From Deltaproteobacteria bacterium (lineage in GTDB: Bacteria; Desulfobacterota; Desulfarculia; JACQYL01): a DNA stretch of 38,086 nt. Positions 7,774 through 35,590 of this stretch are shown piece after piece; positions within the stretch are counted from its first letter, which is position 1, and each line of letters begins with the position of its first letter. The stretch lies in the NCBI GenBank assembly GCA_016208165.1, contig JACQYL010000016.1, positions 1-38,086 on the forward strand, in the 5' to 3' direction. Below the pieces are notes generated by a model. The model was given only the letters and a program-made list of their open reading frames with translations. It was not told the origin of the DNA and did no database searches. Position numbers and translations under genes: made by a program.

Positions 7774-7795
7774 GTGCTTACCTCCTCTTGAGATC

Positions 7796-17423: not shown

Positions 17424-19355
17424 TTATTTGACGCCGAGTTCGAAGTCTTCTTCCTGAAGATCCCAACGGTCGTAGCCTTCGGTTTCCACACCGTATTCTT
17501 CAAAGGGGTACATACCGGGGATGAACTTGGACCGCATCTTTCTCATATAGCGGGTGGTTTCATTCCAAGGCAGATGCTTCCACATGATGGCGCAAATGGG
17601 ACTATCCAAAATGGCCTGCACCGGACGCTTGTCCACGTCCACATTGATGACGGCCGTCTTGCCCTGTTCCGCTGCGGAGAAGGCTTTCTTCAACGCAGCG
17701 CCTATCTTTTCCGGTTGGGTGACCCACTCGGTATGACAGCCGATCGCTTCGAACATGCGATCATATCGTTGGTTCGGGATGAAATAGTGCGGAAGCACTT
17801 CGCCCTCGGGAAGCCCGTACCAACCAAGATTTTTCCCGTATTGAGCATCCGAGCCTCCGATCCAGCCGTCATTGTTGTTGACCAGGTATACAATGGGTAA
17901 TTTGTGCCGCAGGGCGGTTTCAACGTCCATTCCCGAAAGACCCATGCCGGCGTCGCCCATCATGGCGAATATCATCTTCTTTTTATCATACCCGAAAGCG
18001 GCCCCTATGGCCTGTCCGATACCGTGACCAACCCCCGCGTGCGGCCCGGAATCAATCACCTGGCCCGCATTTTTGGCCTTGATATAGGGACTCAGTATAT
18101 TGCTTCCGGTAAAGGCGTCCATGATATAGCAGACGTCACCCTTGTACATCTCGTCCACCGTGTCACAGATGACCTTGCTCAGCCAGGCCGGATGCACCGG
18201 GCTTAAATCTTTGAATTGAAGCGCTCGTTTTTCCAGGTGGGAGGACCTCTCCTGTTCCACTTTCTTTACTCTCTCCAGCCAATCCGAACGTTTCGCAGGC
18301 GGAGACAGGGTGTTATTCTTGATGGCGTCGATCATAGCCTGGATGGTCGTTTTCACGTTTGCCTGGATGGCGACCTCCGTAGGAATCCATGGGTGGATAT
18401 ACTCGGCGGTCTCCGATATCTGGATGGCGCGTTTAATCTGAAACCGATTGCCGAAAAAGTCAAAAAAGTCCATGCGTGCGCCCAGGATGACAAAGAGGTC
18501 CGATTCGAGTCCGATGTTGCCCGCCCGCCAAATCAGGGGATCGTCTTCGGGGATCGAGCCCCGGCCGCCCCGCCGGCCCATCACCGGAATCTGAGCCAAA
18601 CGGGCGAGTTCCCGCAGTTCGGCCTGGCAATTGTTCCAGAGAATCTCGTCACCTACGTACAGCACCGGTTTCTCGCTGGCAAACATCAGTTCCAACACGC
18701 GATCCACGGATTTGGGATTCGGATACGACTCGGCGATGGGTTCTTTCAACCAGTTTTCGGTGTACAGGTTGTGGTTAGGTGGGTAGTTGCCGGTAGCCGC
18801 ATTGAGCTCGAATTCGAGGACCGACGGTCCTTTGGGCAGTTCCATGGCTTTCCGAATGGCTTTGGTAAACCAAAATTTATATGACCGTGAGTCAATCACC
18901 CGTTTCGAAACTTTAGCAAAACTTTCATAAATTTTTTCCGCATAGCATTCTTGAAGCGTGTACGCTCCATCGTCGTTAGCCTCATGACCGGCCAAAAGCG
19001 CCAGCAGCGGGGTATTGCTCAAATGCGCCTGGTGGACGGGCGCCACCAAGTTGGTCGACCCGGGTCCCACCGTGCCGCAGCAGACTCCGATTTTGCCGGT
19101 GGTGCGTGCATAGGCTTCCGCTGCATAGCCTCCGCTCTGTTCGTGCCGTGTTGTGACGTGCTTAATCCCTCCCTTGATCAAGGCATCCACCCAGAGCCAC
19201 ATATGTCCGCCCGAGACTCCGAAAAAGATGTCCACCCCGTTTTCCTTCAGGACTTCCAACATAACGTGCCCCGGATTAGGGGACGTTTCCAACTTGCCCT
19301 CGGGAACCCGTACATCGACTCCGCCTTTTTTCGCCTCGCTGTTCTGTTCCGGCAT
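17424..19355 (-). CDS. Thiamine-diphosphate enzyme (acetolactate synthase-like fold), possible C-C lyase or hydrolase
   Basis: 643 residues with the three-domain POX/acetohydroxyacid-synthase order: Pyr domain (~28-190) with the catalytic Glu72 in TRHEQSGGYAAEAYAR, a central Rossmann-like domain (~215-345), and a PP domain (~385-570) with the ThDP/Mg motif GDAG (467-470)...NNNDG (493-497) and SGPHAGVGHGIGQAIG. The cofactor sites look intact. About 60 extra residues at the C-terminus (WKHLPWNETTRYMRKM onward) are not typical. The start at 19355 has GGGAGG five bases away; the frame is open further upstream without homology. Relatives include synthases, 2-hydroxyacyl-CoA lyase, oxalyl-CoA decarboxylase and the ring-opening cyclohexane-1,2-dione hydrolase. 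Beside BadH- and BadI-like genes, cleavage of an alicyclic dione or ketol is an attractive but unproven role. It lacks the FAD-domain hallmarks I would look for in AHAS, and there is no small subunit gene. Confidence 0.8.
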   Translation of the reverse strand: MPEQNSEAKKGGVDVRVPEGKLETSPNPGHVMLEVLKENGVDIFFGVSGGHMWLWVDALIKGGIKHVTTRHEQSGGYAAEAYARTTGKIGVCCGTVGPGSTNLVAPVHQAHLSNTPLLALLAGHEANDDGAYTLQECYAEKIYESFAKVSKRVIDSRSYKFWFTKAIRKAMELPKGPSVLEFELNAATGNYPPNHNLYTENWLKEPIAESYPNPKSVDRVLELMFASEKPVLYVGDEILWNNCQAELRELARLAQIPVMGRRGGRGSIPEDDPLIWRAGNIGLESDLFVILGARMDFFDFFGNRFQIKRAIQISETAEYIHPWIPTEVAIQANVKTTIQAMIDAIKNNTLSPPAKRSDWLERVKKVEQERSSHLEKRALQFKDLSPVHPAWLSKVICDTVDEMYKGDVCYIMDAFTGSNILSPYIKAKNAGQVIDSGPHAGVGHGIGQAIGAAFGYDKKKMIFAMMGDAGMGLSGMDVETALRHKLPIVYLVNNNDGWIGGSDAQYGKNLGWYGLPEGEVLPHYFIPNQRYDRMFEAIGCHTEWVTQPEKIGAALKKAFSAAEQGKTAVINVDVDKRPVQAILDSPICAIMWKHLPWNETTRYMRKMRSKFIPGMYPFEEYGVETEGYDRWDLQEEDFELGVK

Positions 19356-19703
19356 ACTTACCTCCCTTGGTGTTTGTTTGGTGCAAAAACCATGTACTCC
19401 GCCGAACGAGGCATACACTGTACTCAAGGGGCCACAATAAATAGTGTGGCGCCGAGTGAGCACTGCAACCCCGTTCCCGGCAATGATGAGTTTGGAATTA
19501 CCCACACCGTAAGAATGGAACATCCCCGAAATCGTACGCCGGAACCGGTTTCGATGCTTCCACGATCAAAGGAGGTCAGGTTTCCCAAAACTGTACTTGG
19601 TAAGGAGATGCCATACATCCGTGTCATGCACGGGCAGAGGAGCGATTGTGCGTCCGATCCCGAGGCCCGAATGCCCGTGCCGTGGCCCGGCCCGGCTCGA
19701 GCC
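19356..19703. other. 348-base gap between the ThDP gene and the BadH-like gene
   Basis: No gene is supported. The gap is much larger than others in this operon, so the ThDP gene may have its own promoter; a sigma54-like element lies at 19464-19479. An open reading frame continues upstream of the ThDP start, but its residues do not look like part of the enzyme. Confidence 0.5.
19464..19479 (-). promoter_or_regulatory. Possible sigma54 promoter for the ThDP-enzyme gene
   Basis: Minus-strand CGGGAACGGGGTTGCA has GG and GC at the required ten-base spacing, and TTGCA matches the -12 consensus, but the -24 half (CGGGAAC versus TGGCACG) is poor. It lies about 110 bases upstream of the ATG at 19355. 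A sigma54 activator is encoded at 8798-10810. Low confidence, since GG-N10-GC occurs often by chance. Confidence 0.25.
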
Positions 19704-20468
19704 CTAAGCCATGGTCAGACCGCCGCTTACGCTCAACGTTTGCCCCGTGATGAAATTCGCCTCGTCGCTGGCCAAAAACGTCACGGCCGCGCCGATGTCT
19801 TCGGGCGCGCCCATGCGCCGCAGAGGAATTATCCTGTCCATGGCGGCGAAGACCTTTGCGACGAACTCATCCACTTCAACCATGGCGGTGATCATCGGTG
19901 TCATGGTCGGTCCCGGACAAACGGTATTGACGGTGACGTTGTTCCGGGCCAATTCTCTGGCCATGGTTTTGCTAAACGCTATAATGGCGCCTTTCGTCCC
20001 GGAATATACCGCCTCTCCCGTGCTGCCCACCCTGCCGGCGTCGGAGCTGATATTGATGATTCTTCCGCGATTCCTGGACATCATGTGTTCCACAACGGCG
20101 CGGGTGCAATGGATGGTTCCCATGTAGTTGATTTGTACGATTTTTTCCCACACATCCGGCGTATTCTTTACAAACGGTTCGATCTTGTCCCAGCCGGCAT
20201 TATTCACGAGAATATCGACTTTCTCGAAGTCGGATATAATCCTTTGCATGGTCGCGACTATGGATTCACGATCCGTGATGTCGGCTCTATAAAATCGGAC
20301 TGTTCGACCTAACTGCTTAAGTTCCTTACACGTTTCATCGGCTTCCTTCTCGAGTACGTCGATCATGGCAATGCCGGCGCCCTGTGTGGCAAGGCAGGAG
20401 CATATGCCTTTGCCTATGCCTCTTGCGCCACCCGTTACTACGGCGATCTTACCGGTCAAATCAAACAT
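19704..20468 (-). CDS. SDR-family dehydrogenase, BadH-like (2-hydroxycyclohexanecarboxyl-CoA dehydrogenase type)
   Basis: 254 residues with a complete classical SDR core: TGGARGIG at 12-19, NNAG at 89-92, catalytic Ser141/142, Tyr155 and Lys159 (YSGTK). The segments NNAGWDKIEPF, RGRIINISSDAGRVGSTGEA, VNTVCPGPT and the end ITGQTLSVSGGLTM closely follow the Rhodopseudomonas BadH sequence as I remember it. BadH oxidises 2-hydroxycyclohexane-1-carboxyl-CoA to the 2-keto ester with NAD. The gene lies 88 bases after the BadI-like ring-hydrolase gene, the same functional pairing as in the Bad cluster, so oxidation of a ring hydroxyl beside a CoA-ester carbon is the likely role. The start at 20468 has AAAGGAG seven bases upstream. 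The natural ring substrate may be larger than cyclohexane. Confidence 0.82.
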   Translation of the reverse strand: MFDLTGKIAVVTGGARGIGKGICSCLATQGAGIAMIDVLEKEADETCKELKQLGRTVRFYRADITDRESIVATMQRIISDFEKVDILVNNAGWDKIEPFVKNTPDVWEKIVQINYMGTIHCTRAVVEHMMSRNRGRIINISSDAGRVGSTGEAVYSGTKGAIIAFSKTMARELARNNVTVNTVCPGPTMTPMITAMVEVDEFVAKVFAAMDRIIPLRRMGAPEDIGAAVTFLASDEANFITGQTLSVSGGLTMA

Positions 20469-20556
20469 ATCGGGTCTCCTTTCTTGCTCTCTTGGGTACC
20501 CTGCGGGAAGAGCAGGTGAACGTTAAACACGAAAAACACGAAGCAGTACGGAATAG

Positions 20557-21336
20557 CTACCTCCTGAACCTGGAAAAGTCGGTAGGTCTTTTTTCGAGAT
20601 ACGCGTTTTTACCTTCCTGAGCTTCTTCGCTTTGATAGTACAACCAGGTTGCGGCGCCGCCCATGGCTTCCGAGCCCATTAGATGGTCGGTCTCCCTGTT
20701 GAAGGATGCCTTTAGTACCCTGATCGCCGTCGGGCTCATGGATAGGATCTTCTGACACCAGGCGTCTACTTCTTCGCGCAGCTTTTCAGGCGGCACGACC
20801 TTGTTGACGAGTCCCATGTCCATTGCTTGCCGGGCATTGTACTGTTCGCACAGGAACCAGATCTCCCGGGCCTTTTTCTCACCCACTAGACGCGCCAGGT
20901 AGCCGGCTCCGAATCCGGCGTCGAAGCTGCCCACTCGAGGACCCACCTGCGCGAAAACAGCATTTTCGGATGCGATGGTGAGGTCGCATATGCAGTGAAA
21001 CACGTGCCCGCCTCCGATGGCATATCCATTTACGGCCGCGATCACGGGCATCGGCACTCTTCGAATGGCGTCGTGAACCATGCTCACGTACGTGAGCAGT
21101 TCCGGCTTGTACCCCGCCCCGGAAGACTCGCCCGCATCTCCGCCCACGCAAAAGGCCCTGTTTCCGGCCCCCGTGAAAACCACCACACCGATGGTTCGAT
21201 CCACGATCACATCGTCAAAGGCCTTGACGATTTCTATGAGGGTTTCCGTTCGGAACGCGTTAAGCTTTTTTGGCCGATTGATCGTTATAGTGGCAATTCC
21301 GTCTTTCTTTTCGTAGATAATGTCCTCGAAATCCAT
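20557..21336 (-). CDS. Crotonase of the MenB/BadI type (2-ketocyclohexanecarboxyl-CoA hydrolase-like)
   Basis: 259 residues, matching BadI/MenB in length. The opening MDFEDIIYEKKDGIATITIN and the block VGSFDAGFGAGYLARLVGEK (135-154), KKAREIWFLC, AMDMGLVNKVVP, and the end EGKNAYLEKR-PTDFSRF are the MenB/BadI signature. GGGH at 108-111 provides part of the oxyanion hole. MenB closes a ring by Dieckmann-type condensation; BadI runs the reverse, hydrolysing 2-ketocyclohexane-1-carboxyl-CoA to pimeloyl-CoA. No other men genes are nearby, while a BadH-like dehydrogenase is, so hydrolytic ring opening is preferred. The ATG at 21336 is chosen over 21348 because GGAGG lies five bases upstream and the alignment to BadI begins there. 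It lies 45 bases after the CoA-transferase-like gene. Confidence 0.85.
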   Translation of the reverse strand: MDFEDIIYEKKDGIATITINRPKKLNAFRTETLIEIVKAFDDVIVDRTIGVVVFTGAGNRAFCVGGDAGESSGAGYKPELLTYVSMVHDAIRRVPMPVIAAVNGYAIGGGHVFHCICDLTIASENAVFAQVGPRVGSFDAGFGAGYLARLVGEKKAREIWFLCEQYNARQAMDMGLVNKVVPPEKLREEVDAWCQKILSMSPTAIRVLKASFNRETDHLMGSEAMGGAATWLYYQSEEAQEGKNAYLEKRPTDFSRFRR

Positions 21337-21381
21337 GGGCTCCTCCATTGTTTGATGGGAATATGCGCTTATTAACGGGAT

Positions 21382-23160
21382 TTACTCCGCTTTCTTGCCT
21401 AAATAGTATCTATTGGGATCGAAGGACCGGATGATGTCCAGCTCGAGTTGCACGGGAGGGTCCAATATCTCGATATTCGGCGCCTGCTTGAGGTCCCACC
21501 CGCAACGTTCCCGGATCTCCTCCGGTGTAACGTGCGATTGGCCCGAGCAGCACGGAAAGCAGGCTGTCAGGACCAGTTCCTCCCCCGCACGCTCCCGTTC
21601 GAAGAGGCCCAACGTGGAGACCACGACGCGCAGGTTGTCTCCCGGAGAGGTCACATACCCGAGGTGCTTTTTGAAACGGTTCTTGGACTGCCCCACGAGC
21701 ACCATCATCTCTCTGGCCGCACTGGCCACGTCGTTGGCGCCTCCCGATCCCGTTATGAATGTGCCTTCGCTCGTTCTGGTCGTATTCACGTTCCCCAAAG
21801 GGTCAATCTCCGCGGCTCCGATCGCGCCGATACAGGACCCATGGCGCCCACTCAATATCAAACCCATTACCGTTTGGATATCGCACACCATCTTACACGT
21901 GCAGAAGTTTCGATGATTGAAAATGGAAGGGTCCATGGGACGCGGAACGTACCCGTAGAGGCCGACTTCCGCGATCAAATCGATGTCATATCCTTCCTTT
22001 CGGAGGTTGTAGAAGCACAGCCAGGCAGCGAGGTTGGATATGCCGGCGCCGCAGAGCATCGTCTTATATTCGTTCCGGATGATCGTTTCTTTGAGCTTGC
22101 GGGACATGGCCACCGCAGCCATCTCGACGGGTGTGTAGGAGGGGCTTCTAGATATGTTCTTTTCAGCCCCGACCTCGAATTTCCACATGTCGAAATGGGA
22201 CTCGCCCTTGAGCCTCAACAATCGATCCCGGCCCAGCTTTTCGAGGTATGCTTCATGCGAATCGCAGGACAACACCCATTCCTGGACCCAGGCTTCAAAT
22301 TCTTCCTCGGATTTCTCGCACCGCCGCCCCTCGTCGATGAAATCGTAGTCCTCGGCGTATACATCGAGATCAACCATGCCTATGCGAGACAATCCCCCGG
22401 GATGCGCGCCGAAGGGTACCTCCGAAACCGACCGCACGAAAGTCCCCGGCAGCCGCACCAGGTGATTGTATCTGCGTATGGTTTCCGTTGACACGATTTT
22501 CTCGGCGCTCAGGACCACTCCCTGGCGGCTGGCCATGGCTCCGTAAAGGTTTTCGCTGAGCGGAGGCAGAAATACTGCGTTTCCTTGGCTGTCAGCCATC
22601 CAGGCGTGCAGAATCGAGAGGTCCGGCGTCAATGCTTTCACCAGTCCGATCCGTCGTTCTTTGTCGAAGGGATCGTCCATTGCAAGGAACGTATCCGGAT
22701 TCTCCCGCTCAAGGGAACTCCCGAGAAGGGACTTGGTCGGCAGGAAAGGTACACCCATAGCCCCGGCCTGCAGGCGCAGGGGCAGCGTGAGAAGGGACCA
22801 GTGCTCGGCCTTCAGCGACCCATCCTGGAGAGATCGTTGGAACACGGCGTTGGGGCCGGGTGTATAGTATGGGTCTCCGAAGTAGCAGGTAATGATCTTG
22901 GACACGAGTCCCCCATGCACCAGAACCGCCTGGGGGAGATTCATGGACAGCGCCACGAGCTCGAGGCTGTTTTTCCTGCCCCAGAACTGGCGGGCGATTT
23001 CAAACAGAATGGCCGTGCACCACCGCGCCCCCACCTGACCGACGTGAAGCAGGATTCCGGGCTTTACGTGCTCCCTGACGGCGTCCTTCAGTGAAGTCAC
23101 CTTATCCGGACCGGCGGTGAACTCCGGTTGAAACCAGGGTTCGTTGAAATGTTCCATCAT
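21382..23160 (-). CDS. Fused alpha-beta family I CoA-transferase-like protein (GctAB/IpdAB type)
   Basis: 592 residues. Residues ~1-320 match the GctA-like alpha subunit (GILLHVGQVG, LQAGAMGVPFLPTKSLLGSS, ILHAWMADSQGNAVF), and ~340-592 the beta subunit (YTPVEMAAVAMSRKLKE, CGAGISNLAA, DLIAEVGLYGYVPRP, FITGSGGANDVASAAREM). The two are usually separate genes; here they are joined in one frame by a charged linker. Glu398 in AEVGLYG stands where family I transferases carry the acyl-accepting Glu. Possible roles are CoA transfer between organic acids or, as for the structurally similar IpdAB of steroid degradation, retro-Claisen hydrolytic opening of an alicyclic beta-keto-CoA. The start at 23160 has AAGGGG seven bases upstream, 20 bases after the thiolase stop. 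The frame extends upstream through the thiolase gene, but that part is a shadow. Confidence 0.82.
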   Translation of the reverse strand: MMEHFNEPWFQPEFTAGPDKVTSLKDAVREHVKPGILLHVGQVGARWCTAILFEIARQFWGRKNSLELVALSMNLPQAVLVHGGLVSKIITCYFGDPYYTPGPNAVFQRSLQDGSLKAEHWSLLTLPLRLQAGAMGVPFLPTKSLLGSSLERENPDTFLAMDDPFDKERRIGLVKALTPDLSILHAWMADSQGNAVFLPPLSENLYGAMASRQGVVLSAEKIVSTETIRRYNHLVRLPGTFVRSVSEVPFGAHPGGLSRIGMVDLDVYAEDYDFIDEGRRCEKSEEEFEAWVQEWVLSCDSHEAYLEKLGRDRLLRLKGESHFDMWKFEVGAEKNISRSPSYTPVEMAAVAMSRKLKETIIRNEYKTMLCGAGISNLAAWLCFYNLRKEGYDIDLIAEVGLYGYVPRPMDPSIFNHRNFCTCKMVCDIQTVMGLILSGRHGSCIGAIGAAEIDPLGNVNTTRTSEGTFITGSGGANDVASAAREMMVLVGQSKNRFKKHLGYVTSPGDNLRVVVSTLGLFERERAGEELVLTACFPCCSGQSHVTPEEIRERCGWDLKQAPNIEILDPPVQLELDIIRSFDPNRYYLGKKAE

Positions 23161-23180
23161 TTCGTCGCCCCTTCGAGTGT

Positions 23181-24344
23181 TCAGCGGGCCTCGAGGATCG
23201 TGACCGAACTGTTGGGGCCGGCGCCCATGGCATGGGCCATGCCGATTCGGGCTCCCGCCACCTGCCGTTTCCCCGCCTCCCCGCGTAATTGGCAAACCAA
23301 CTCGCATATCTGGCCCAAGCCTGTAGCGCCCAACGGATGACCCCGGGACATGAGACCACCGTCCGTGTTTACAGGGGTTTTTCCACCGATATCGAACGCT
23401 CCCTCTTTCAGCAGACGGGGAGCTTCGCCCTTTTTGCAGAAGCCCAGTTTCTCGATGTCCCACAGCTCGGCGGGCGCCATGGTGTCGTACGCCTGTACAA
23501 CGTCCATGTCTTCCGGTCCGTATCCGGAAGTCTCGAAAGCCTGTTTGGCGGAAAGCTCGACGATGCCTAAAGCGGGGGGGTGATTGCGGCTCTTGGAGAT
23601 CCCCGCCATTATAGAGTGCTCTCCATAGACCCCCGACGTCAGCGAACACGCCTTTACGGTCACGGCCCGTTGTGCGGAAGGGATCCTGTCGCGACTGCAC
23701 ACGATGGCGGCGGCCGCGCCGTCGGCCAGAGGGCAGCAATGGAACAATCGCAGAGGGGTTGCCACCATCCGGGAATTCAACACTTCTTCCATGGTGACTT
23801 CTTTTTGGAATCGGGCGTGCGGGTTGTGAACGCCGTTCTTTCTGTTTTTCACCGTGACCCGCGCGAAGTCCTCCACCGTGGCGCCGGTTTCTTCCATGTA
23901 TACCACGGTCTCATTGGCATAGTTCGCCATCTGAACGTTGAAGCCGGAAGCCAGTTCCCATGGCCTGAAAGCCGTGCTGGGGATCGGACCCCGCGGCATT
24001 TTCTCCATGCCGAGGACCAGAACGGTATCGTAGAGTTCCGCGGCTACGGATTGGCATGCCAGGCGGAAGGCCGAAGAACCGCTCGAACACGCGTTCTCGA
24101 CGTTCACCACGGGAATACCGGTCAATCCGACTTCCTTTATGGCCTGATGGCCGGATCCGGTTCCCTGATACACGCTCCCGCAAAATGCCGCTTGCACATC
24201 GTTCCAAGTAAAACCCGAATCTTCGAGTGCGTTCAGTATGGCCTCGCTTCCAAAGTCGTAGCATTCCTGATCAGGGTAATACCCCCATTTGGTCAGTCCG
24301 AACCCCGCCACCAGGACTTCTCTCATCTCACTCATGTCCTTCAT
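23181..24344 (-). CDS. Thiolase (SCP-x-like), probable partner of the DUF35 protein
   Basis: 387 residues. The nucleophile is Cys86 in VVNVENACSSGSSAFR, with SRGHPLGATG near the end and the closing AHAMGAGPNSSVTILEA. Where the other thiolase of this window has MEVHDCFS, this one has VVQAYDTMAPAE, that is Tyr in place of the catalytic-loop His; the same change occurs in some SCP-x-like thiolases. The start at 24344 has GGGGGAG about five bases upstream, and the gene lies 23 bases after the DUF35 gene. The thiolase-DUF35 pair mirrors BbsAB (benzoylsuccinyl-CoA thiolase). Expected function: CoA-dependent cleavage of a beta-ketoacyl-CoA made by the acyl-CoA dehydrogenase, crotonase and SDR of the same operon. 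Confidence 0.88.
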   Translation of the reverse strand: MKDMSEMREVLVAGFGLTKWGYYPDQECYDFGSEAILNALEDSGFTWNDVQAAFCGSVYQGTGSGHQAIKEVGLTGIPVVNVENACSSGSSAFRLACQSVAAELYDTVLVLGMEKMPRGPIPSTAFRPWELASGFNVQMANYANETVVYMEETGATVEDFARVTVKNRKNGVHNPHARFQKEVTMEEVLNSRMVATPLRLFHCCPLADGAAAAIVCSRDRIPSAQRAVTVKACSLTSGVYGEHSIMAGISKSRNHPPALGIVELSAKQAFETSGYGPEDMDVVQAYDTMAPAELWDIEKLGFCKKGEAPRLLKEGAFDIGGKTPVNTDGGLMSRGHPLGATGLGQICELVCQLRGEAGKRQVAGARIGMAHAMGAGPNSSVTILEAR

Positions 24345-24367
24345 ACATCTCCCCCAGACACCACAGG

Positions 24368-24799
24368 CTAAACAGGCATGAACTTGAACGTTACGATGTC
24401 GCGGCCTTCTTCGTCCTCACACAACTTATCAATTACGAGCTCGACGTCTCTGTGCAGTTCAAGTTCGTCAAAATCGTCGGTTTTGAACAACGTCGTAACA
24501 TAAATGCCCTCCGGCAGCTCGACGGCTCCATACGCATACGGAACGGGTCCCTTATAAAAGCCCCCTCCCGGTTGCTGCATGACCACGCTGAAGCTGGCGA
24601 TCTTCCCTCTCGGGCTCAACCTCACGTCTTTCAAAGTCTTTTGCCGGCAGTAGGTACACCAGCCTTTTTCCTTCTTCGGGAAGAAACTCTCCCCGCACGA
24701 TTCGCATTGACTTCCGATGAGCTGGGGCGGTTCATCCTCCGAAGCCGGCGTTGTCCAAAAACCCTCGTGAATGGGAATCCGGTTACTCTCACTGTTCAT
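24368..24799 (-). CDS. DUF35 zinc-ribbon/OB-fold protein (acyl-CoA-associated)
   Basis: 143 residues with the DUF35 layout: an N-terminal helix (IPIHEGFWTTPASEDEPPQL), a rubredoxin-like zinc ribbon with C32, C35, C48 and C51, then an OB-fold (GKIASFSVVMQQPGGGFYKG, VPYAYGAVELPEGIYV, TLFKTDDFDELELHRDVEL). Such proteins bind the CoA moiety and bridge or regulate thiolase-fold partners; none is an enzyme alone. It is encoded directly before the SCP-x-like thiolase and after a crotonase gene. Length is normal for a stand-alone member, in contrast to the fused DUF35 domain at 6328-7773. The start at 24799 lies 29 bases after the preceding stop; upstream sequence has only a weak ribosome binding site. 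Confidence 0.88.
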   Translation of the reverse strand: MNSESNRIPIHEGFWTTPASEDEPPQLIGSQCESCGESFFPKKEKGWCTYCRQKTLKDVRLSPRGKIASFSVVMQQPGGGFYKGPVPYAYGAVELPEGIYVTTLFKTDDFDELELHRDVELVIDKLCEDEEGRDIVTFKFMPV

Positions 24800-24828
24800 T
24801 ATGGTCTCCGACGTTGTACATTAAGGTC

Positions 24829-25608
24829 TTATTCGGCCTTGAATACCGGCTTCCGCTTCTCGAGAAAGGCCTGTATTCCTTCCTTGTAATCTTCCGTAAA
24901 GCTTACCAGAGTGGCGCATTTTGCTTCGTAGTCCAGGCCCTGGGCCATAGCCATTTGCATACCGTCGTTGATGGCGGCCTTCGCGAGTTTGAGTACAAGA
25001 GGAGGCCGCTCTCTATAGAGATTCGCCCAACTGTGTGCTTCTTCGAGCAATGAGTCCGTTGGAACTACTTTGTTCAAAAGGCCTATGCGTTCGGCTGTTA
25101 CAGCGTCGATGGGTTCCCCGCTGAAGATAAGTTCCTTGGCCTTTGCTATGCCGATGAGACGGGGAAGCCTCTGGGTGGAACCTCCACCGCCGATGACGCC
25201 TATCCTGGAATGCGCATCTCCAAGCAATGCATTGTCTGCGCCGATGCGGATATCACAGGTGCAGGCCAGCTCGAGGCCGCCTCCCAGGCAATAGCCGGCA
25301 ATGGCTGCGATGACCGGTTTACCCATATCTTCGATCAGATGATAGTAGCTGTAGGTCCGTTTGGGCGAGAGCTTGTCCCATAGCCGAGCCGGAACAGGCG
25401 ACTCCTTGATGTCCGCCCCGGCGCAAAACACCTTTAGGCCCCCGGTAATGATCACCACTTTGATGCCGTCGTCGACACCCGCATCCTCGAGGGTCTCGAT
25501 GATCTCGTCGCGCATCCTGGGATTTATGGCGTTTCGCCTCTCCGGCCGATTCAGGGTAATGGTCGCTATACCTTCAATTTTTTCGTACAATATGGTTTCG
25601 TATGCCAA
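24829..25608 (-). CDS. Crotonase/enoyl-CoA hydratase-like protein with altered catalytic Glu
   Basis: 259 residues in the crotonase fold: MAYETILYEKIEGIATITLN, FCAGADIKE, the oxyanion-hole/first-Glu motif YCLGGGLELAC (Glu113), and IGLLNKVVP. The second catalytic Glu of classical hydratases (PEI-x-LG) is replaced: the segment reads GDAHSRIGVIGGGG with His133 at that position. A similar GD-x-H variant exists among crotonases of anaerobic degradation clusters, so hydration of an alicyclic 1-ene-1-carboxyl-CoA (a BadK-like step) or another crotonase reaction is possible. The start is a TTG at 25608 because GGAGG lies seven bases upstream and the family alignment begins there; no ATG fits. Spacing is 28 bases after the SDR gene and 29 bases before the DUF35 gene. 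Confidence 0.85.
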   Translation of the reverse strand: MAYETILYEKIEGIATITLNRPERRNAINPRMRDEIIETLEDAGVDDGIKVVIITGGLKVFCAGADIKESPVPARLWDKLSPKRTYSYYHLIEDMGKPVIAAIAGYCLGGGLELACTCDIRIGADNALLGDAHSRIGVIGGGGSTQRLPRLIGIAKAKELIFSGEPIDAVTAERIGLLNKVVPTDSLLEEAHSWANLYRERPPLVLKLAKAAINDGMQMAMAQGLDYEAKCATLVSFTEDYKEGIQAFLEKRKPVFKAE

Positions 25609-25636
25609 TGGATCGCCTCCTCTCGTTGTATGCGCT

Positions 25637-26419
25637 TCAGACCATGCAATAGCCCCCGTTGACGCTGAGGGCCTGGCCGGTGATCCAACTCGCTCGTTCC
25701 GACGCCAGAAAACAGATGGCATTTGCCGCATCCTGCGTTCTTCCAAAACGCCGGAGCGGATAGTTCTTCAGAATCGCTTTTTCCAATTCGTCTACGGTCT
25801 TACCGAAACGTTCCGCCATCACTTCCTTCAGTTTGGCTGCACCGGGGGTGTTCGTGGCGGAAAGCGATACGCAGTTGACACGTACGCTGTTGCGGCCCAA
25901 TTCTTTGGCAAGGGCCTTGCTGAATGCGATAACGCCTGCTTTGGCCGCCGAATAGACGCAGTTGTTTGTTTCTCCGATCTTACCCGCATCTGAAACCACG
26001 AACACCATGCTTCCCCGATTCTGTGTTACCATCTGTCGGACCACGGCCGCAGCGGAGTTCAAGACTCCGTATAGATTCAAATGGACGGAAGAATCCCAAT
26101 CCGCTTGAGTTGCTTCGATGAATGGTTTGCGTTCTCCATGTCCGGGGACGTGAATCAGGATGTCGATGGATTTGAAGGCGCTCAACGCTTTTTGGACCGC
26201 CTCGGCCACCTGATTTCGGTCCGTAACATCGAGGCCGAACCAGAGGCTGTCAACGCCGAGGTCCCGGACCATGCCGGCCGTCTTTTCGGCTTCGGCAGGG
26301 TCCATGTCGCACGCCACGATATGAGCACCCTCCGCAGCCAGCGTCAGGGCCGTCTCCCGCCCGATGCCTTCACCTCCGCCCGTGATGAACGCTACCTTGC
26401 TCCGTACGCCCAGGTCCAT
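25637..26419 (-). CDS. SDR-family oxidoreductase with unusual NNAG replacement
   Basis: 260 residues. The cofactor loop TGGGEGIG (13-20) and catalytic Ser143, Tyr156 and Lys160 (YSAAK) are present. The usual structural NNAG after strand 4 is HVPG (90-93), an uncommon substitution that removes the Asn residues. It resembles the BadH-like SDR of the same operon in the middle and C-terminal parts (QNRGSMVFVVSDAGKIGE, ITGQALSVNGGY). A beta-hydroxyacyl-CoA or ring-hydroxyl dehydrogenase role is likely, as with the two SDR subunits BbsC and BbsD of toluene degradation. An AAGGAA ribosome binding site lies six bases before the start at 26419. A 260-base gap without recognisable features separates it from the upstream acyl-CoA dehydrogenase gene. 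Confidence 0.85.
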   Translation of the reverse strand: MDLGVRSKVAFITGGGEGIGRETALTLAAEGAHIVACDMDPAEAEKTAGMVRDLGVDSLWFGLDVTDRNQVAEAVQKALSAFKSIDILIHVPGHGERKPFIEATQADWDSSVHLNLYGVLNSAAAVVRQMVTQNRGSMVFVVSDAGKIGETNNCVYSAAKAGVIAFSKALAKELGRNSVRVNCVSLSATNTPGAAKLKEVMAERFGKTVDELEKAILKNYPLRRFGRTQDAANAICFLASERASWITGQALSVNGGYCMV

Positions 26420-26679
26420 GAAGTATTCCTTCTTATTGTCCGTTCAGAGGATATCGGAGGGAACTTTTCTTAAACGAGGCCTCCCTCGGGCTCCGTCCGA
26501 AGATTCAATGTCTAGTCGCCTTGCGCCGGGGTTGTCCGTCCTCTTGGGTATCGTATCTCGATTTGCATCAGCGGACCACGGTCTGCGAGAATTCCGACTC
26601 TCCCTGCATACTTACCTAAGTGGACCGGCTTTCCGTACGCCGACGGAAGCCGATTACGTTTCAAGTCGAGACGCTCGCA

Positions 26680-27831
26680 TCATACAAAGGCGGACATTCC
26701 CAGTATATGGCGCCCGAGAATGAGCTTTTGGATTTCTGTGGTTCCCTCCGCCATGGTGAGATGACGCACGTCCCGGTAGTATCGTTCCATGGGGAACTCT
26801 TCGGTGTATCCATATCCTCCGTGGATCTGGATTCCCTTGTAGGTTACATCGAGCATGGCTTCCGTTGCGTAGAGCTTCGCGAACGAGGCTTCGCGCACGC
26901 ATTCCACTCCTCGATCCAACAGGTCCGCCGCCCTGTAACCCAACAGCCGTGCTATATCCACTTTGAGGGCCATGTCGACGATCATTTCCTGCACCAGCTG
27001 AAACTTGCCGATGGGCCTGCCGAACTGGACCCGTTCTTTGGCGTAGTCGATGGAAGCATCGAGGGCGGCCTGGCCGATTCCGGTGACGGCAAAGGTGACG
27101 GTCACCCGGCCTATGTTGAGTCCGCTCAAAGCGATCTTCATGCCCCTTCCTTCATCGCCCAGACGGTTCGCCGCAGGGACTCGGCAGTCCTCGAAGGACA
27201 GTTCCGAGAGCACGGATGCGTGCATACCCATCTTTCGGATATCCCGTGCGCCGAAAGGGGACTCCTCTTTGTCCACAATGAAGGCGGTGATGCCTTCCCC
27301 TTTTTTGGAACGGTCCACCGTGGCGTACACGATGGCCACATCCGCCATACTTCCGCCCGTAATGAGCGTTTTCGTGCCGTTGAGGACATAGTAATCGCCA
27401 TCACGTTCGGCCTTGGTTTCAATGGAACTCACGTCGGATCCCACGTTGGGTTCCGTGAGGGCGAAACACCCCAGCGTATCCACGGAAAGCAAGCCCGATA
27501 CAAACCTATCCTTCTGGCCGGCGGTTCCATGCTTGGCAATGGAGTAGGTCACCATTCCGGTTGTGGTGGTGATGGTGCGGAGGGAACCCCAAACCCGGGC
27601 CAGTTCCTCGACCAGAATGTAGTAGCTGATGAAATCGAGCCCAAGTCCGCCCATTTGCTCCGGGATAAGGGCTTGCGTGTAGCCGAACGGTTCCAACTTC
27701 TTCACTATGTCTTTGGTGAGAGGCTTGCGCTCCCGCTCGTAATCGTCCACGAGGGGTGCTATTTCTTTTTCCAGGAATTTCCGCACCGTATCTTTGAGTA
27801 TTCTCTGTTCCTCTGTGAAGCTGAAGTCCAT
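26680..27831 (-). CDS. Acyl-CoA dehydrogenase
   Basis: 383 residues with complete family features: MDFSFTEEQRILKDTVRKFL, the FAD motif CFALTEPNVGSDVSSIETKA, NGTKTLITGGSMADVA, ERVQFGRPIGKFQLVQ, GGYGYTEEFPMERYYRD and AEGTTEIQKLILGR with candidate catalytic Glu362. 1,4-dehydrogenating cyclohexenecarboxyl-CoA dehydrogenases use Asp at this position, so the Glu here favours ordinary 2,3-desaturation. The NIGR-x-TV and EEFPMERYYRD segments recall AliB/BadJ- and BbsG-like enzymes, but this cannot be settled by eye. GGGGAG lies seven bases before the start. It is the second catabolic gene of the operon, 46 bases after the family III CoA-transferase-like gene. Confidence 0.92.
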   Translation of the reverse strand: MDFSFTEEQRILKDTVRKFLEKEIAPLVDDYERERKPLTKDIVKKLEPFGYTQALIPEQMGGLGLDFISYYILVEELARVWGSLRTITTTTGMVTYSIAKHGTAGQKDRFVSGLLSVDTLGCFALTEPNVGSDVSSIETKAERDGDYYVLNGTKTLITGGSMADVAIVYATVDRSKKGEGITAFIVDKEESPFGARDIRKMGMHASVLSELSFEDCRVPAANRLGDEGRGMKIALSGLNIGRVTVTFAVTGIGQAALDASIDYAKERVQFGRPIGKFQLVQEMIVDMALKVDIARLLGYRAADLLDRGVECVREASFAKLYATEAMLDVTYKGIQIHGGYGYTEEFPMERYYRDVRHLTMAEGTTEIQKLILGRHILGMSAFV

Positions 27832-27877
27832 ACGATTTCTCCCCTTCTGAACGCGGCCCTTGGGACACGAGGATGCA

Positions 27878-29044
27878 TCAACAAATACGCGCTTGCTTCA
27901 GAGACCGTATTTCCTCTGGACTGAAACCGGCTTCCGTCAATATGGGGCCGGTGTCCCTTCCAAGAACGGGTTCGCCGGGTGCCGAGGTCCGGGAGCCGGC
28001 GGACAGGGCCACGGGGAAACGCGGCAGGTCACGCGTCACCACCCGTCCCCCCGGATCCATTGGAATCAGATTACGATGGCTTAACTGGGGATCGCGCATC
28101 CAGGTGTCGAAGGTCGCTACCGGAGCCACGGGCACGTCCGCTTTGGATAGCGCAGCCAGCCAATACTCGAGATCGTGTCTTTTGATGACCGCTTGAATCC
28201 TGGAGACGATCCTGCTCCTGTTCTCGTTGCGTGCAACCCAAGACCGGAGGGACGCATCCGACGCCAGATCCTCGAGTCCCAGGGCCCGGCACAAGTTGTC
28301 CCAGAAGTGGTCTTCGACAACGCCCAGAGTCAGGTATTGGCCGTCTTTGGTTTCGAACACCCCGTAAGGGCCTCTTCCCATGAACTTTTCTTTGCAAGGC
28401 CGGCCACGATCCAGGAATTCCAGAAAACGAGGCATCATCCACATGGCCAGGCTTTCCGTCATGCTGACGTCCAGGTAAAGGGGGGTGGGCGAATGCCGGG
28501 CTCTGAGAAGCGCGGCAAGGATGGCTGTCGCCGCGTACATGGCGCCGCTCAGGTCCGCTACCTGGAAGCCGTATGGGTTTTGGGGCCCCTGCTCCGGGTC
28601 TCCGGAGATACTCAACAGGCCCGCGACTCCTTGATAATTGATGTCATGGCCGGGAAGAAGCGCATACGGACCCGTTTGACCGTAGCCGGAAATGGAGCAG
28701 TAAATGACGGACGGATTGGCTTTCTTGACGGTTTCGAAGTCAATGCCCAAGCGAGAGGCTACTCCGGGCCTGAATCCTTCCACTACAACGTCGGCATGTC
28801 GAGACAATCTCAAGAAGACATCGACGCCTTCCGGTTGTTTGAGGTCCAGCGTGATCAGCTTCTTATGGTTATTCAGGTAGTCAAAACCCAAAGGCAGGAT
28901 GCTGCGTAACGGGTCGCCGGCTGGGGTCCGTTCGACCTTAATCACCTTTGCCCCCAGGTCCGCCAGGATCATCGTGCAGTAGGGTCCGGGAAGCAGATTC
29001 GTACAATCCAGCACCTGTATTCCGTGAAGAGCCGGGCGGTCCAT
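27878..29044 (-). CDS. CaiB/BaiF family III CoA-transferase or alpha-methylacyl-CoA racemase
   Basis: 388 residues with the family's interlocked-fold signatures: the N-terminal GIQVLDCTNLLPGPYCTMIL, LADLGAKVIKVER, the DLKQPEG segment, VVEGFRPGVASRLGIDFET and SISGYGQTGPYALLPGHDIN. The GHDINY-x4-G element with its Asp is shared by alpha-methylacyl-CoA racemases, so it may epimerise a branched acyl-CoA rather than transfer CoA; length suits both. Transferases of the benzylsuccinate type (BbsEF) are heterodimers, and only one gene is present here. As first structural gene after the GntR regulator it probably acts early, activating the acid or setting stereochemistry for the dehydrogenase encoded next. 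No CoA-ligase gene is in the window, which slightly favours a CoA-transferase role. Confidence 0.85.
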   Translation of the reverse strand: MDRPALHGIQVLDCTNLLPGPYCTMILADLGAKVIKVERTPAGDPLRSILPLGFDYLNNHKKLITLDLKQPEGVDVFLRLSRHADVVVEGFRPGVASRLGIDFETVKKANPSVIYCSISGYGQTGPYALLPGHDINYQGVAGLLSISGDPEQGPQNPYGFQVADLSGAMYAATAILAALLRARHSPTPLYLDVSMTESLAMWMMPRFLEFLDRGRPCKEKFMGRGPYGVFETKDGQYLTLGVVEDHFWDNLCRALGLEDLASDASLRSWVARNENRSRIVSRIQAVIKRHDLEYWLAALSKADVPVAPVATFDTWMRDPQLSHRNLIPMDPGGRVVTRDLPRFPVALSAGSRTSAPGEPVLGRDTGPILTEAGFSPEEIRSLKQARIC

Positions 29045-29092
29045 GCTGTCTCTCTATGGCTTTTCTGTCCGGTAGTAGAGTGTACCCATCTC

Positions 29093-29833
29093 TCAGGAAG
29101 CTTGAGAGTCCGCAGTCACGAAAAATCCATCCGGGTTGAAAGCAGCGGTTTCCAATGATTTCTGAACGATGCCCGTAACATGGGCCCTAACCTGGTGTTC
29201 CGCCCGGACACTATCCCGTGCCTCAAAACTTTCGATGATGCGCTCATGTTCTCGAATGGATTGAGGTATGACGTCATGATCCCGGTAGTAGAAATTGCAC
29301 ATCCAAAACCAAACGATGGCTTTCTTCAGAGACCGTATGGTGCCGTGGATCACCTGATTATCCGCCGCCTTCACGTAGGTCTTGTGAAAGTCGAAATTCA
29401 GCTCGGCGCATCGTTCGTACTGCTCATGTTCATACGCTTCGGACATGTCTTTGTTCAGCTGTTTGAGCAGTGTGATATGAGCGTCCGTGAGTTTGACGGC
29501 GGCCAGACCGGCGGCAAGTGACTCCAAAGCGGCCATCACGGGGATCAAATCCTCAATATATTTTCGCGTGATTTGGCGCACGTACCTCTTCTTGTAGGCG
29601 TCGACCACTACCAGGTCGTCGGACTCCAACATGCGGAGGGCTTCCCGAATGGGCGCCCGGCTCACGCCGAACGCTTTTTGCAGGTCGGTTTCTTTCAGCA
29701 GTTGCCCGGTCCGGATGTGGCCCATGGCGATGGCGCGCCCCAGGGATTTGTAGATCTGGTCCACCAGAGTCAGGGGTTTCCCGAGGGCTTCGTAGGCCTT
29801 TTCATGTTGTCCGTTGGAATGGTCCGGTTTCAT
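29093..29833 (-). CDS. GntR family transcriptional regulator, FCD type
   Basis: 246 residues: a winged helix at ~20-90 (LVDQIYKSLGRAIAMGHIR, LLKETDLQKAFGVSRAPIRE, ALRMLESDDLVVV) and an all-helical FCD ligand-binding domain from ~95 with the metal/ligand pattern D/E...H-x3 (FDFHKTYVKAADN) and later REHERIIES. FCD regulators sense organic acids or acyl-CoAs and usually repress. The start at 29833 is preferred to the upstream in-frame ATG (29890) and TTG (29899) because a perfect operator-like palindrome, TTGTCGACAA, covers those upstream codons. It is the first gene of the long minus-strand operon (48 bases before the CoA-transferase-like gene) and is divergent from the double-cubane protein gene, so it likely controls both and itself. 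Confidence 0.88.
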   Translation of the reverse strand: MKPDHSNGQHEKAYEALGKPLTLVDQIYKSLGRAIAMGHIRTGQLLKETDLQKAFGVSRAPIREALRMLESDDLVVVDAYKKRYVRQITRKYIEDLIPVMAALESLAAGLAAVKLTDAHITLLKQLNKDMSEAYEHEQYERCAELNFDFHKTYVKAADNQVIHGTIRSLKKAIVWFWMCNFYYRDHDVIPQSIREHERIIESFEARDSVRAEHQVRAHVTGIVQKSLETAAFNPDGFFVTADSQAS

Positions 29834-30236: not shown

Positions 30237-30296
30237 TATTATACTGCCACCGATTGGAGATACTTACTTCAAACGCTTCTTCAGGAGGTTCCGAGT

Positions 30297-31568
30297 ATGA
30301 GTTACGAGGCGATGTGGCAACAACTGGGACTCGATCTCGCCGCGCACGACGTTTTGATGCAAACGCTCGGCGAGGGCTACAAGAGTATATTCCTGCAGCA
30401 GCAAGAGCGGCCCAAAGGTATGGAGTACTTCGACTTCGTCATGAGCGAAGTGCACGGATTGCGTATCAAAGAACTGCTCGAAGGCAAAAAGGAGGGGCGC
30501 AAAGTCATCGGCTCCTTCTGCGTTTTCGTCCCCGAGGAAATCGTGCGGGCCGCGGACGCAACCCTGGTGGGATTGTGCACCGGAGCCGACTTCGCCACCG
30601 AGGAAGTCGATAAGCTTTTGCCCAGGAACACGTGCGCCCTGATCAAGTCGGCCTTTGGATTCAAGCTGGGCAAGGTGTGCCCCTACATCGAGTCCGCGGA
30701 CATGATCGTGGGGGAAAATACCTGTGATGGAAAGAAGAAATCGTACGAAACACTGGATACCCTGGTGGACAACCTGTACGTAATGGATCTTCCGCAGACG
30801 AAATCCGAGCAAGGCAAGTCGCTGCTCAAAGCCGAATTCGAAAAGTTCATGCGGGCGGTGGAAGGACTGACCGGAGTCACCATTGACGTTGAGAAGCTCA
30901 AGAAAGGCATCGGCATTGTGAACGACAAGCGCGCCGCCATTCACAGGCTCTCGAGCCTCCGAACGGCGGACCCGGCCCCCATCTCCGGACTGGACGCGCT
31001 CTTGATGAATCAGGTTTTCTTTTACGACGATCCCGCGCGATTCACCCATTCGGTCAACACGATCTGCGATGAACTCGAGGGACGCATAGCCGAGAAACGG
31101 GGTCCGTTCCCCGAGGGCGCTCCGAGGATTCTCTTGTCCGGTTGTCCCATGGCGGTGCCGAACTGGAAAGCGCCCTGGATCGTCGAGACCTCGGGTGCGG
31201 TCATTGTGGGAGAGGAATCGTGCGTAGGCGAGAGAGGGACGCGAAACCTTACGGCGGCCACCGGGAACAGCGTCGAAGAACTCATGGACGCCATTGTGAA
31301 CCGGTATTTTCAGGTGGACTGCGCCATCTTCACCCCGAACGAGGACCGCCTGAGCCATTTGAAAGAAATGGTCGACACCTACGACGCCGACGGCGTGATC
31401 CATTACGGGCTGCAGTTCTGCCAACCCTATCAGGTCGAGTCCATTCCGGTGGAAAGAGCCCTCGAGGAATCGGGCATTCCGGCCCTCAGGCTGGATACGG
31501 ATTACAGTATGGGAGACGTCGCTCAGATCAAAACGCGCGTCGAGGCGTTTCTCGAGCGCATTGGTTAA
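30297..31568 (+). CDS. Double-cubane-cluster/2-hydroxyacyl-CoA dehydratase D-type iron-sulfur protein
   Basis: 423 residues. Landmarks: GSFCVFVPEEIVRAADA (C75), LPRNTCALIKSAFGFKLGKV (C113), CPYIESADMIVGENTCDGKK (C128, C143), then late cysteines in LLSGCPMAVPNWK, GEESCVGER and YGLQFCQPYQVE. The VGENTCDGKKKSYETL block is, as I recall it, a hallmark of YjiM/double-cubane-cluster proteins, the HgdB/BcrC/BadD superfamily members that hold an [8Fe-9S] centre and perform ATP-driven low-potential reductions. They need an ASKHA-type ATPase activator, and none is encoded in this window. The start at 30297 has AGGAGG eight bases upstream. Monocistronic and divergent from the GntR gene, it is probably controlled by that regulator. 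It may reduce an unsaturated or ring CoA-ester or supply low-potential electrons. 2-hydroxyacyl-CoA dehydratase activity is less likely because no second subunit is present. Confidence 0.8.
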   Translation: MSYEAMWQQLGLDLAAHDVLMQTLGEGYKSIFLQQQERPKGMEYFDFVMSEVHGLRIKELLEGKKEGRKVIGSFCVFVPEEIVRAADATLVGLCTGADFATEEVDKLLPRNTCALIKSAFGFKLGKVCPYIESADMIVGENTCDGKKKSYETLDTLVDNLYVMDLPQTKSEQGKSLLKAEFEKFMRAVEGLTGVTIDVEKLKKGIGIVNDKRAAIHRLSSLRTADPAPISGLDALLMNQVFFYDDPARFTHSVNTICDELEGRIAEKRGPFPEGAPRILLSGCPMAVPNWKAPWIVETSGAVIVGEESCVGERGTRNLTAATGNSVEELMDAIVNRYFQVDCAIFTPNEDRLSHLKEMVDTYDADGVIHYGLQFCQPYQVESIPVERALEESGIPALRLDTDYSMGDVAQIKTRVEAFLERIG

Positions 31569-34700: not shown

Positions 34701-34828
34701 GCGCGCCTCAGACCCTGGAAACCCCCAATCTCGAGATAGCGATCGAGCGTCGTTGGATTGATCTGCTCGCACCATGTCGTGAGCACGCGGCCCAGAACCA
34801 GGGACAACCCTGTCGAGTAAACATCCAT
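31793..34828 (-). CDS. Fusion: degenerate NuoF-like domain + GltD-type flavoprotein + polyferredoxin tail
   Basis: 1011 residues. Residues ~50-375 follow NuoF (SSGLRDRGYLAEPVYLNWKR, TRNPFGLVEGLLIAA, NTCMVDSTRRALYRYW), but the NADH/FMN glycine loop (GRGGAGFP) has become DRGYLAEP and the N3-cluster ESCGKC-x2-C region is SEHEQIGART, so this part looks non-catalytic. Residues ~400-800 are a GltD/NfnB-like unit: two N-terminal cluster motifs (C406, C410, C413; C445, C449, C453, C457), FAD motif GSGPAG (502-507), NAD(P)H motif VVVGGGNVAID, AGGDVVYGP. Residues ~860-920 hold ferredoxin motifs (C863-C879; C909, C912, C915, C919), and two CxxC pairs close it (C950/C953, C983/C986). It is third in an operon with a molybdopterin enzyme and a four-cluster ferredoxin. 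It probably passes electrons between NAD(P)H and these partners. Cytoplasmic; no membrane anchor is visible. Confidence 0.85.
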   Translation of the reverse strand: MDVYSTGLSLVLGRVLTTWCEQINPTTLDRYLEIGGFQGLRRALDMNPLEVMAELRSSGLRDRGYLAEPVYLNWKRFQRWHEPGVLVVDATQYDARSESSAFLLTRNPFGLVEGLLIAAVTCGVEHCRLLLPSDLHDYETGFLNALETILEHDVARGNTLKLELIRHQAPSIWTDGLSHSERQGVLVHPIETWYHIALVLSLGAEHFRTLGVEGQTGTCLLTLGGPLKRPGLAEAPLGVDLWHVVETLAGGLTDKANPLALSLDGGMGGFLPAPGARVPLAPEEMAAALVTPAPKTVWLLEKNTCMVDSTRRALYRYWLLSEHEQIGARTLIARATRMVTEITVGKGMDSHLVELETLGREMVGRGLAAAWPLLSSLTNFRDQWESHVRREACPSGRCIERKPAPCHGTCPACIDIPSFLAMIGHEDYKQAAGAISKDNPLPFVCGLVCPAPCEDACLRGNMDAPIYIRAMKAVAAHHALEEGGYPKPRKAKSTKKRVAIVGSGPAGLTAAYFLTLSGHDVTIFEAQEEAGGMLRYGIPAYRLPREVLDREVGRITELGVGIRTGYEIGHLDELRNQGFDACFLALGTQLSRMIPIEGKELPFVLGGLDFLKEVRGDRNPRVGPRVVVVGGGNVAIDVALTALRQGGRRVDIVCLEKRREMPAHTSEIETALAEGVAIHNSWGPVSVSADHVFTAQRCTRVFDERGRFNPRFDPGKRMTIEADHVILAIGQATDLACVEVGSLVTVERGLICTDENSLATGEPGVFAGGDVVYGPRTVVEAVRAGKQAANSIDAYLRGKSIDPSWSQPIRRAEVEPLDVDANARTRLNRPEMPTRKVEDRKGNFQIIELGLTDEMALGEASRCLRCDLCIGCGLCQLVCSELGIEALRLAEANEERLAFTDFTRPSNRCVGCGACAKACPTGAIKVVDKDGIRYTVLTGTVVREQELLKCSMCGKPHMSQAYLEHLKHRVGPQAVEHVDRNLCPVCARALRGRELGSWVEPKEVMTFRAAP

Positions 34829-34994
34829 GAGTTATACCTTATTTAGTTTCCATCCGGAAATGGCCCGGAAACGAGCACGAAGTCGCATGAGTTCCTTTGG
34901 CGGCATTTTCACGATTTCCGGGAAATCTGCGTCCAAAGATTCAGCCGCTCCGCCAACGGCGGTGCGGCAATGCTTAAACAATTTGAAAGGAGTC

Positions 34995-35024
34995 TGAGGG
35001 GAACTTTTTAAAGTTTCCCTCAGC
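34995..35024. repeat. 14-bp hairpin within the redox operon
   Basis: CTGAGGGGAACTTT and AAAGTTTCCCTCAG, two-base loop, a single G-T wobble. It lies 20 bases after the ferredoxin stop and 166 bases before the fusion gene's start, without a T-run. It could tune relative expression by processing or partial termination. The remaining ~200 bases of this gap hold a 64-codon open frame that I do not regard as a gene. Confidence 0.6.
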
Positions 35025-35044
35025 AAAAGAGAATGATTTCCCTA

Positions 35045-35572: not shown

Positions 35573-35590
35573 GGCTTGAAACTCCTTTTA

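Follow-up and report, generated by a model that had tools for sequence, protein, structure and literature searches.

A catabolic operon of a Desulfobacterota bacterium suggests an oxygen-free degradation route for a ring compound

What compound is degraded by the genes at positions 29833-17424 (minus strand) of contig JACQYL010000016.1, from the Deltaproteobacteria bacterium assembly GCA_016208165.1, and by what chemistry? A first-pass annotation had read this run as an operon in which several C-C hydrolases, related to BadI, IpdAB and cyclohexane-1,2-dione hydrolase (CDH), open successive rings of a polycyclic or substituted alicyclic acid. The window analysed here is the whole contig (38,086 nucleotides), part of a 5.69 Mb genome (142 contigs, 95.5% complete, 4.4% contamination) in which dsrA scores over its cut-off, so that the host is likely to be a sulfate reducer. 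Our results make it probable that the run is a substrate-controlled catabolic operon combining a Bbs-like beta-oxidation and a BadH/BadI-like gene pair with a CoA-transferase of the Gct type and a lyase/synthase linked to formyl-CoA, which suggests a new degradation route for a ring compound without oxygen.

The operon comprises eleven co-directed genes, a GntR/FCD regulator and ten catabolic genes (Table 1), transcribed in the order GntR, CaiB (a family III CoA-transferase), acyl-CoA dehydrogenase, a short-chain dehydrogenase/reductase (SDR; SDRb), the hydratase ECHa, a DUF35 protein, an SCP2-type thiolase, a fused GctAB, the crotonase ECHb, a further SDR (SDRa) and a thiamine diphosphate (ThDP) enzyme. 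Pfam and NCBIfam served to assign the families, and the starts were checked against ribosome sites, which gave corrected starts for the ThDP enzyme (19355), GctAB (23160) and the second hydratase, ECHa (TTG at 25608). The GntR-headed run in one direction was as first described, with every named gene present, but the CaiB protein, the acyl-CoA dehydrogenase, the second SDR and the second hydratase had gone unmentioned. Eleven long same-strand genes with curated-family matches rule out a chance effect of open reading frames. Intergenic gaps are mostly 20-88 bp, the exceptions being 260 bp (26420-26679) and 348 bp (19356-19703), and no terminator-like site was found on the minus strand in any operon gap; promoter and terminator scans of the window gave site numbers no higher than in shuffles, and an Rfam search gave no match. 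At the level of sequence, the identities and order of the genes, their conserved catalytic residues and their family placements are firm, and the operon is assembled from known kinds of gene and is not a new class.

The candidate for ring opening is ECHb. It scored 359.9 bits (cut-off 380) and 337 bits (cut-off 342.7) against the NCBIfam MenB models and 315.2 bits against BadI (TIGR03210), below the cut-off of 467.6; for the adjoining SDRa the best model was BadH (TIGR03206), yet its score of 288.5 bits lay below the cut-off of 431.2. A maximum-likelihood tree was built with annotated MenB proteins from men operons, BadI proteins from bad-ali-type clusters and 20 homologs from the phylum. MenB formed one clade (100/99) and the BadI-context proteins another (96/98), with ECHb outside the latter and grouped with other proteins of its own phylum in a third (95/93); forcing ECHb together with BadI was rejected (approximately unbiased (AU) test, p=0.010). 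In the alignment ECHb kept the GSxD and LYY positions common to MenB and BadI (a Ser/Asp/Tyr pattern), and it carries GGDAGESS where the MenB motif reads GGDQKVRG. Members of the third clade at two loci (L229 and L231) adjoin SDR and acyl-CoA dehydrogenase genes; within the MenB/BadI family this clade is a third one, catabolic and present in anaerobes. No MenD over cut-off was found in the host genome, and a menaquinone role for ECHb as MenB was rejected by this context; the earlier description, in which the BadH-like SDR adjoins a crotonase of the MenB/BadI family in a CoA-linked catabolic operon, was borne out. Because of the neighbouring genes, we infer that ring opening by ECHb, beside the BadH-like SDR, is plausible.

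The ThDP enzyme had been likened to CDH. However, its best profile matches in the PDB were oxalyl-CoA decarboxylases and 2-hydroxyacyl-CoA lyases/synthases (266 bits), and the same two groups accounted for all of the first 15 Foldseek matches of its AlphaFold model (pLDDT 82, pTM 0.85). CDH was absent from the best 60 profile matches and the best 50 Foldseek matches, and when the C-terminal region was compared with the PDB it was the weakest of 37 (2pgn/4d5g; 22 bits, versus 56 for oxalyl-CoA decarboxylase). In the tree, the enzyme belongs to a clade of 41 members (SH-aLRT 100), that of the acetone-induced TDP enzymes; Desulfotruncus arcticus DSM 17038 and Desulfoscipio geothermicus DSM 3669 are both represented in it, and IolD, Als/Xsc and Oxc/HACL1 lie outside. 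The basal branch of this clade consists of the window enzyme, a host paralog on another contig (C94; 83% identity), and proteins of Syntrophobacterales GWC2_56_13 (70%) and Desulfobacterales UWMA-0216 (52%). Tree, profile and fold together reject a CDH or IolD identity. Since Oxc and HACL1 make up a separate clade (SH-aLRT 100) that stands next to the ketone-TDP family as a whole, the enzyme may be said to work like HACL1 or Oxc but not to be either; the best reading is a 2-hydroxyacyl-CoA lyase/synthase-like enzyme, predicted to be formyl-CoA-linked. A search of residues 499-506 for an acid/base glutamate like E493 of AcHACL, made without an AcHACL alignment, revealed no invariant acidic residue.

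ThDP-dependent ketone formylation in sulfate reducers has been proposed on the basis of proteomics (PMC4103992, PMC7888143, PMC8084838), the proposed product being a 2-hydroxyacyl-CoA, although the step was not demonstrable in extracts (PMC7888143). At one locus of the ThDP clade (L110) the gene is preceded by a PF06050 pair, BcrAD-like activators, hydratase, thiolase, DUF35 and HMGL-like genes and followed by radical SAM, thiolase, 3-hydroxyacyl-CoA dehydrogenase, ligase and carboxyltransferase genes; because this order agrees with the published acetone-induced D. arcticum cluster (PMC8084838), L110 presumably contains the induced gene itself. Among 36 loci of the clade, PF06050-type genes lay near 13, mutase-like (B12) genes near nine and family III CoA-transferases near six. 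The 83% paralog (G000:C94:36050-37972, L079) stands next to thiolase, acyl-CoA dehydrogenase, PF06050-type and carboxyltransferase genes. A short second PF06050 fragment at that locus suggests a broken or split gene.

The two subunits of glutaconate CoA-transferase (1poi), GctA and then GctB, aligned one after the other along the fused GctAB (592 aa), which scored 145 bits with GctA versus 68 bits with IpdA. The position that differs (E to A) between the wild-type and mutant IpdA structures 6co6 and 6coj, which we take to be the catalytic Glu105, is Leu123 in the fused protein and I, L, Q, M or F in its 13 relatives, so that this glutamate is lost in 14/14. By contrast, the catalytic glutamate of GctB (motif E-x-G; presumably Glu54 in A. 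fermentans GctB) corresponds to Glu398 and is present in 14/14. The earlier proposal of an IpdAB-type ring hydrolase fails on these residues, which by sequence indicate that the protein works like a CoA-transferase; the grouping with ordinary glutaconate transferases that had been named as a contrary outcome is in good part what was found. Matches at E<=1e-40, some of them separate-gene homologs, occurred in 34/395 sampled genomes of the phylum; a single-sequence search of genome contigs gave no match. Among the closest relatives (about 50-54%), those at L042-L045 lie in a co-directed ACAD-MaoC-SDR-DUF35-thiolase-GctAB run (ACAD, acyl-CoA dehydrogenase), with a methylmalonyl-CoA-mutase-like gene and CaiB added at L042 and an AMP-ligase at L043; the surroundings of homologs below 47% showed no run of this kind. 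These runs tie GctAB to DUF35-thiolase beta-oxidation. In another genome (L093, G318:C34:105000-121000), separate GctA and GctB genes form a tandem duplicate at 5046-9063.

Among the remaining enzymes, the CaiB protein had formyl-CoA transferase 10uh as its best PDB match (192 bits) with the aligned Asp kept; since benzylsuccinate CoA-transferase and others were among its further matches, several acids are possible substrates. The acyl-CoA dehydrogenase came nearest to the NCBIfam models for acryloyl-CoA reductase and glutaryl-CoA dehydrogenase but did not reach the cut-off of any. The DUF35 protein (49 bits against BbsA, cut-off 250) and the thiolase (256 bits against BbsB, cut-off 750) are adjoining genes of the BbsAB type, as had been proposed; because both fall below these equivalog cut-offs, BbsAB identity itself is not claimed.

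In the pathway that we propose, CaiB and/or GctAB would load CoA, and the acyl-CoA dehydrogenase, ECHa, SDRb and the DUF35-thiolase would run beta-oxidation. SDRa would form a cyclic beta-keto acyl-CoA, whose ring ECHb would open by hydrolytic (retro-Dieckmann) C-C cleavage, while GctAB would shift CoA between acids via an acyl-glutamyl intermediate. The ThDP enzyme may join or split a carbonyl compound and formyl-CoA (ketone + formyl-CoA = 2-hydroxyacyl-CoA). We infer that the substrate is alicyclic and that the genes are transcribed together, as well as the direction in which the ThDP enzyme and the crotonase act.

Several observations weigh against this pathway. Although ECHb has its own clade, its grouping with MenB was not rejected (AU p=0.30), and MenB-type ring-closing chemistry is compatible with the tree. 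The ThDP enzyme is only 35-37% identical to the acetone enzymes, its gene is set apart by the 348-bp gap and could be a separate unit, and the full gene set with GctAB and ThDP surrounded no homolog in the sampled genomes. The window also encodes no 2-hydroxyacyl-CoA dehydratase and no B12 mutase, and the usual partners of the ThDP family would therefore be encoded elsewhere in the genome, which has 25 PF06050 places and eight mutase-family genes, with PF06050 near its ThDP paralogs. The divergent PF06050 gene upstream was rejected as the missing dehydratase, being a double-cubane reductase. A more novel conjecture, though somewhat unlikely, is a formyl-CoA-dependent degradation of cyclic ketones in which ketone formylation and the BadKHI route are merged in one operon. 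Addition of formyl-CoA to a cycloalkanone by the ThDP enzyme would yield a 1-hydroxycycloalkane-carboxyl-CoA, which a 2-hydroxyacyl-CoA dehydratase would convert to a cycloalkene-carboxyl-CoA; the hydratase, the BadH-like SDR and the BadI-like crotonase would hydrate this, oxidise it and open the ring to a dicarboxyl-CoA, to be shortened by the remaining genes, with the CoA-transferases supplying formyl-CoA or recycling CoA. This scheme would employ the unusual members of the operon together, and requires the dehydratase to come from elsewhere.

The 348-bp gap could instead mark the border between two independent units, a Bbs-like dicarboxylate or alicyclic operon from GntR to the BadH-like SDR and an unrelated, separately transcribed ThDP gene. 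The C94 paralog indeed has no BadH/BadI-like pair beside it, and no other locus was seen with the ThDP family beside such a pair, but the gene lies on the same strand behind a gap without a terminator-like site, and at L105, the locus of a 70% ThDP homolog, a GntR-like fragment (43% to the window GntR) lies upstream and GctA and GctB downstream, with PF06050 genes nearby, so that regulator, Gct and ThDP recur together; we regard two units as doubtful. Co-occurrence of GctAB and ThDP, seen besides the host only in two genomes (G069 and G139), is near chance (34 and 13 of 395 genomes). Were the substrate a fumarate adduct or another substituted succinate, resembling benzylsuccinate or alkylsuccinate, the combination of CaiB, acyl-CoA dehydrogenase, hydratase, SDR and DUF35-thiolase would follow Bbs logic, and the mutase-like gene of the related L042 cluster would fit; however, the BadH/BadI-like pair has no place in such a route, and fumarate-adduct catabolism is improbable because no glycyl-radical enzyme (PF02901) was found in the 95.5%-complete genome. 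Least probable of all, and now very unlikely, is the successive opening of rings in a polycyclic or substituted alicyclic acid with which the annotation began. It drew on the presence of a GctAB-fold protein and a ThDP enzyme next to the BadH/BadI-like pair, and on the fold that GctAB has in common with IpdAB, but the residues of GctAB and the low rank of CDH remove two of its three pillars, leaving ECHb as the one candidate C-C hydrolase.

Parts of the proposed pathway have counterparts in known systems. The benzylsuccinate beta-oxidation operon, BbsEFGHCDAB, likewise combines family III CoA-transferase, acyl-CoA dehydrogenase, hydratase, SDR, DUF35 and thiolase genes; the window differs in that it has only one CaiB, its scores lie below the Bbs cut-offs, the genome lacks a fumarate-adding enzyme and further modules are present. 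The cyclohexanecarboxylate pathway (bad-ali; aliAB-badKHI) of Rhodopseudomonas palustris and Aromatoleum sp. CIB, whose clusters are widespread (PMC9795900), also has an SDR adjoining a MenB/BadI-family crotonase, together with hydratase and acyl-CoA dehydrogenase. In the window, by contrast, both proteins score below the cut-offs for BadH and BadI, the crotonase stands outside the BadI clade, AliA ligase is missing, the regulator is GntR and not MarR, and CoA-transferases, DUF35-thiolase and ThDP enzyme are added. The acetone and short-chain ketone clusters of Desulfococcus biacutus, Desulfosarcina cetonica, Desulfotruncus arcticus and Desulfoscipio geothermicus (PMC4103992, PMC7888143, PMC8084838) contain a ThDP enzyme of the same clade and DUF35, SCP2-type thiolase, hydratase and SDR genes, whereas the window lacks their B12 mutase, dehydratase and HMGL-like genes and adds the BadH/BadI-like pair and Gct. 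In anaerobic naphthalene ring cleavage by culture N47, the thn operon (PMC12016498, PMC11659651) includes the crotonase ThnL, which hydrolyses 2-oxocyclohexanecarboxyl-CoA (reviewed in PMC12016498); such activity therefore occurs in sulfate reducers. By description this operon is alike in its beta-oxidation genes, ring-hydrolysing crotonase and CoA-transferase, but its transferase, ThnP, is of the Cat1 type, not Gct, and no ThDP enzyme is listed. Plasmid pl1WSM5005 of Paraburkholderia sprentiae WSM5005 (L184) carries thiolase, OB-fold, acyl-CoA dehydrogenase, CoA-transferase, SDR, BadI-like crotonase and FCD regulator genes, but with a BadI-clade crotonase and a MaoC hydratase and without GctAB or a ThDP gene. 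The cluster seems to represent a further alicyclic-acid route, carried by a root-nodule bacterium. The statement that no described pathway has the whole set in one operon stands, but a core of the set recurs elsewhere.

A ThDP relative beside a putative ring-opening gene pair points to cyclic ketones or alicyclic hydroxy acids as a concrete class of substrates, and ketone formylation could thereby be extended from acetone to rings. The analysis further delineates a clade and a protein family: the third MenB/BadI-family clade, found in anaerobes, and the fused Gct CoA-transferases, which are linked to operons with DUF35-thiolase genes. The earlier idea that this operon encodes an IpdAB or CDH hydrolase is corrected.

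Table 1. Genes of the operon and its divergent neighbour, with the evidence for each assignment.
Feature	Position	Strand	Evidence
GntR/FCD family regulator	29093..29833	-	Pfam FCD 88 bits, GntR 55 bits; start TTG 29899 or ATG 29833, uncertain
Family III (Frc/CaiB) CoA-transferase	27878..29044	-	Pfam CoA_transf_3 320 bits
Acyl-CoA dehydrogenase	26680..27831	-	Pfam Acyl-CoA_dh domains
SDRb, SDR dehydrogenase (3-hydroxyacyl-CoA type)	25637..26419	-	Pfam adh_short_C2 197 bits; YxxxK kept
ECHa, enoyl-CoA hydratase (BadK-position candidate)	24829..25608	-	Pfam ECH_1 217 bits; TTG start, good ribosome site
DUF35/OB-fold zinc-ribbon thiolase partner (BbsA-like)	24368..24799	-	Pfam OB_ChsH2_C, zf-ChsH2
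SCP2-type thiolase (BbsB-like)	23181..24344	-	Pfam Thiolase_C_1
Fused GctA-GctB family I CoA-transferase, predicted catalytic Glu398	21382..23160	-	1poi_A and 1poi_B align head to tail
ECHb, MenB/BadI-family crotonase, candidate beta-keto ring hydrolase	20557..21348	-	NCBIfam MenB/BadI matches below cut-off; own clade in tree
SDRa, BadH-like SDR, partner of ECHb	19704..20468	-	NCBIfam BadH best model
ThDP enzyme, 2-hydroxyacyl-CoA lyase/synthase fold, in acetone-induced TDP clade	17424..19355	-	Tree, profile versus PDB, AlphaFold and Foldseek
Double-cubane-cluster reductase (DCCP), divergent neighbour; operon association uncertain	30270..31568	+	NCBIfam double_cubane 455 bits, cut-off 350; PDB 7yyl/6eno 441 bits

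Elsewhere in the window, a second catabolic run (1886-8453, minus strand) encodes a flavocytochrome-c-like flavoprotein, an acyl-CoA dehydrogenase, a thiolase (PRK06157), a fused HMG-CoA-synthase-like/DUF35 protein and an ABM protein, with a sigma-54 activator alongside; HMGCS-DUF35 and thiolase genes also occur near ECHb homologs at L224, L226 and L236. Between the two catabolic regions lies the gene for a 1354-aa Avs2 anti-phage protein (12361-16425, minus strand; PADLOC 1256 bits), in a dip of GC content (0.49 versus 0.56). The region 31793-37816 (minus strand) encodes a NuoF/GltD-like flavo-Fe-S protein of 1011 aa together with a molybdopterin enzyme resembling PhsA/formate dehydrogenase; the two may form a formate or thiosulfate module.

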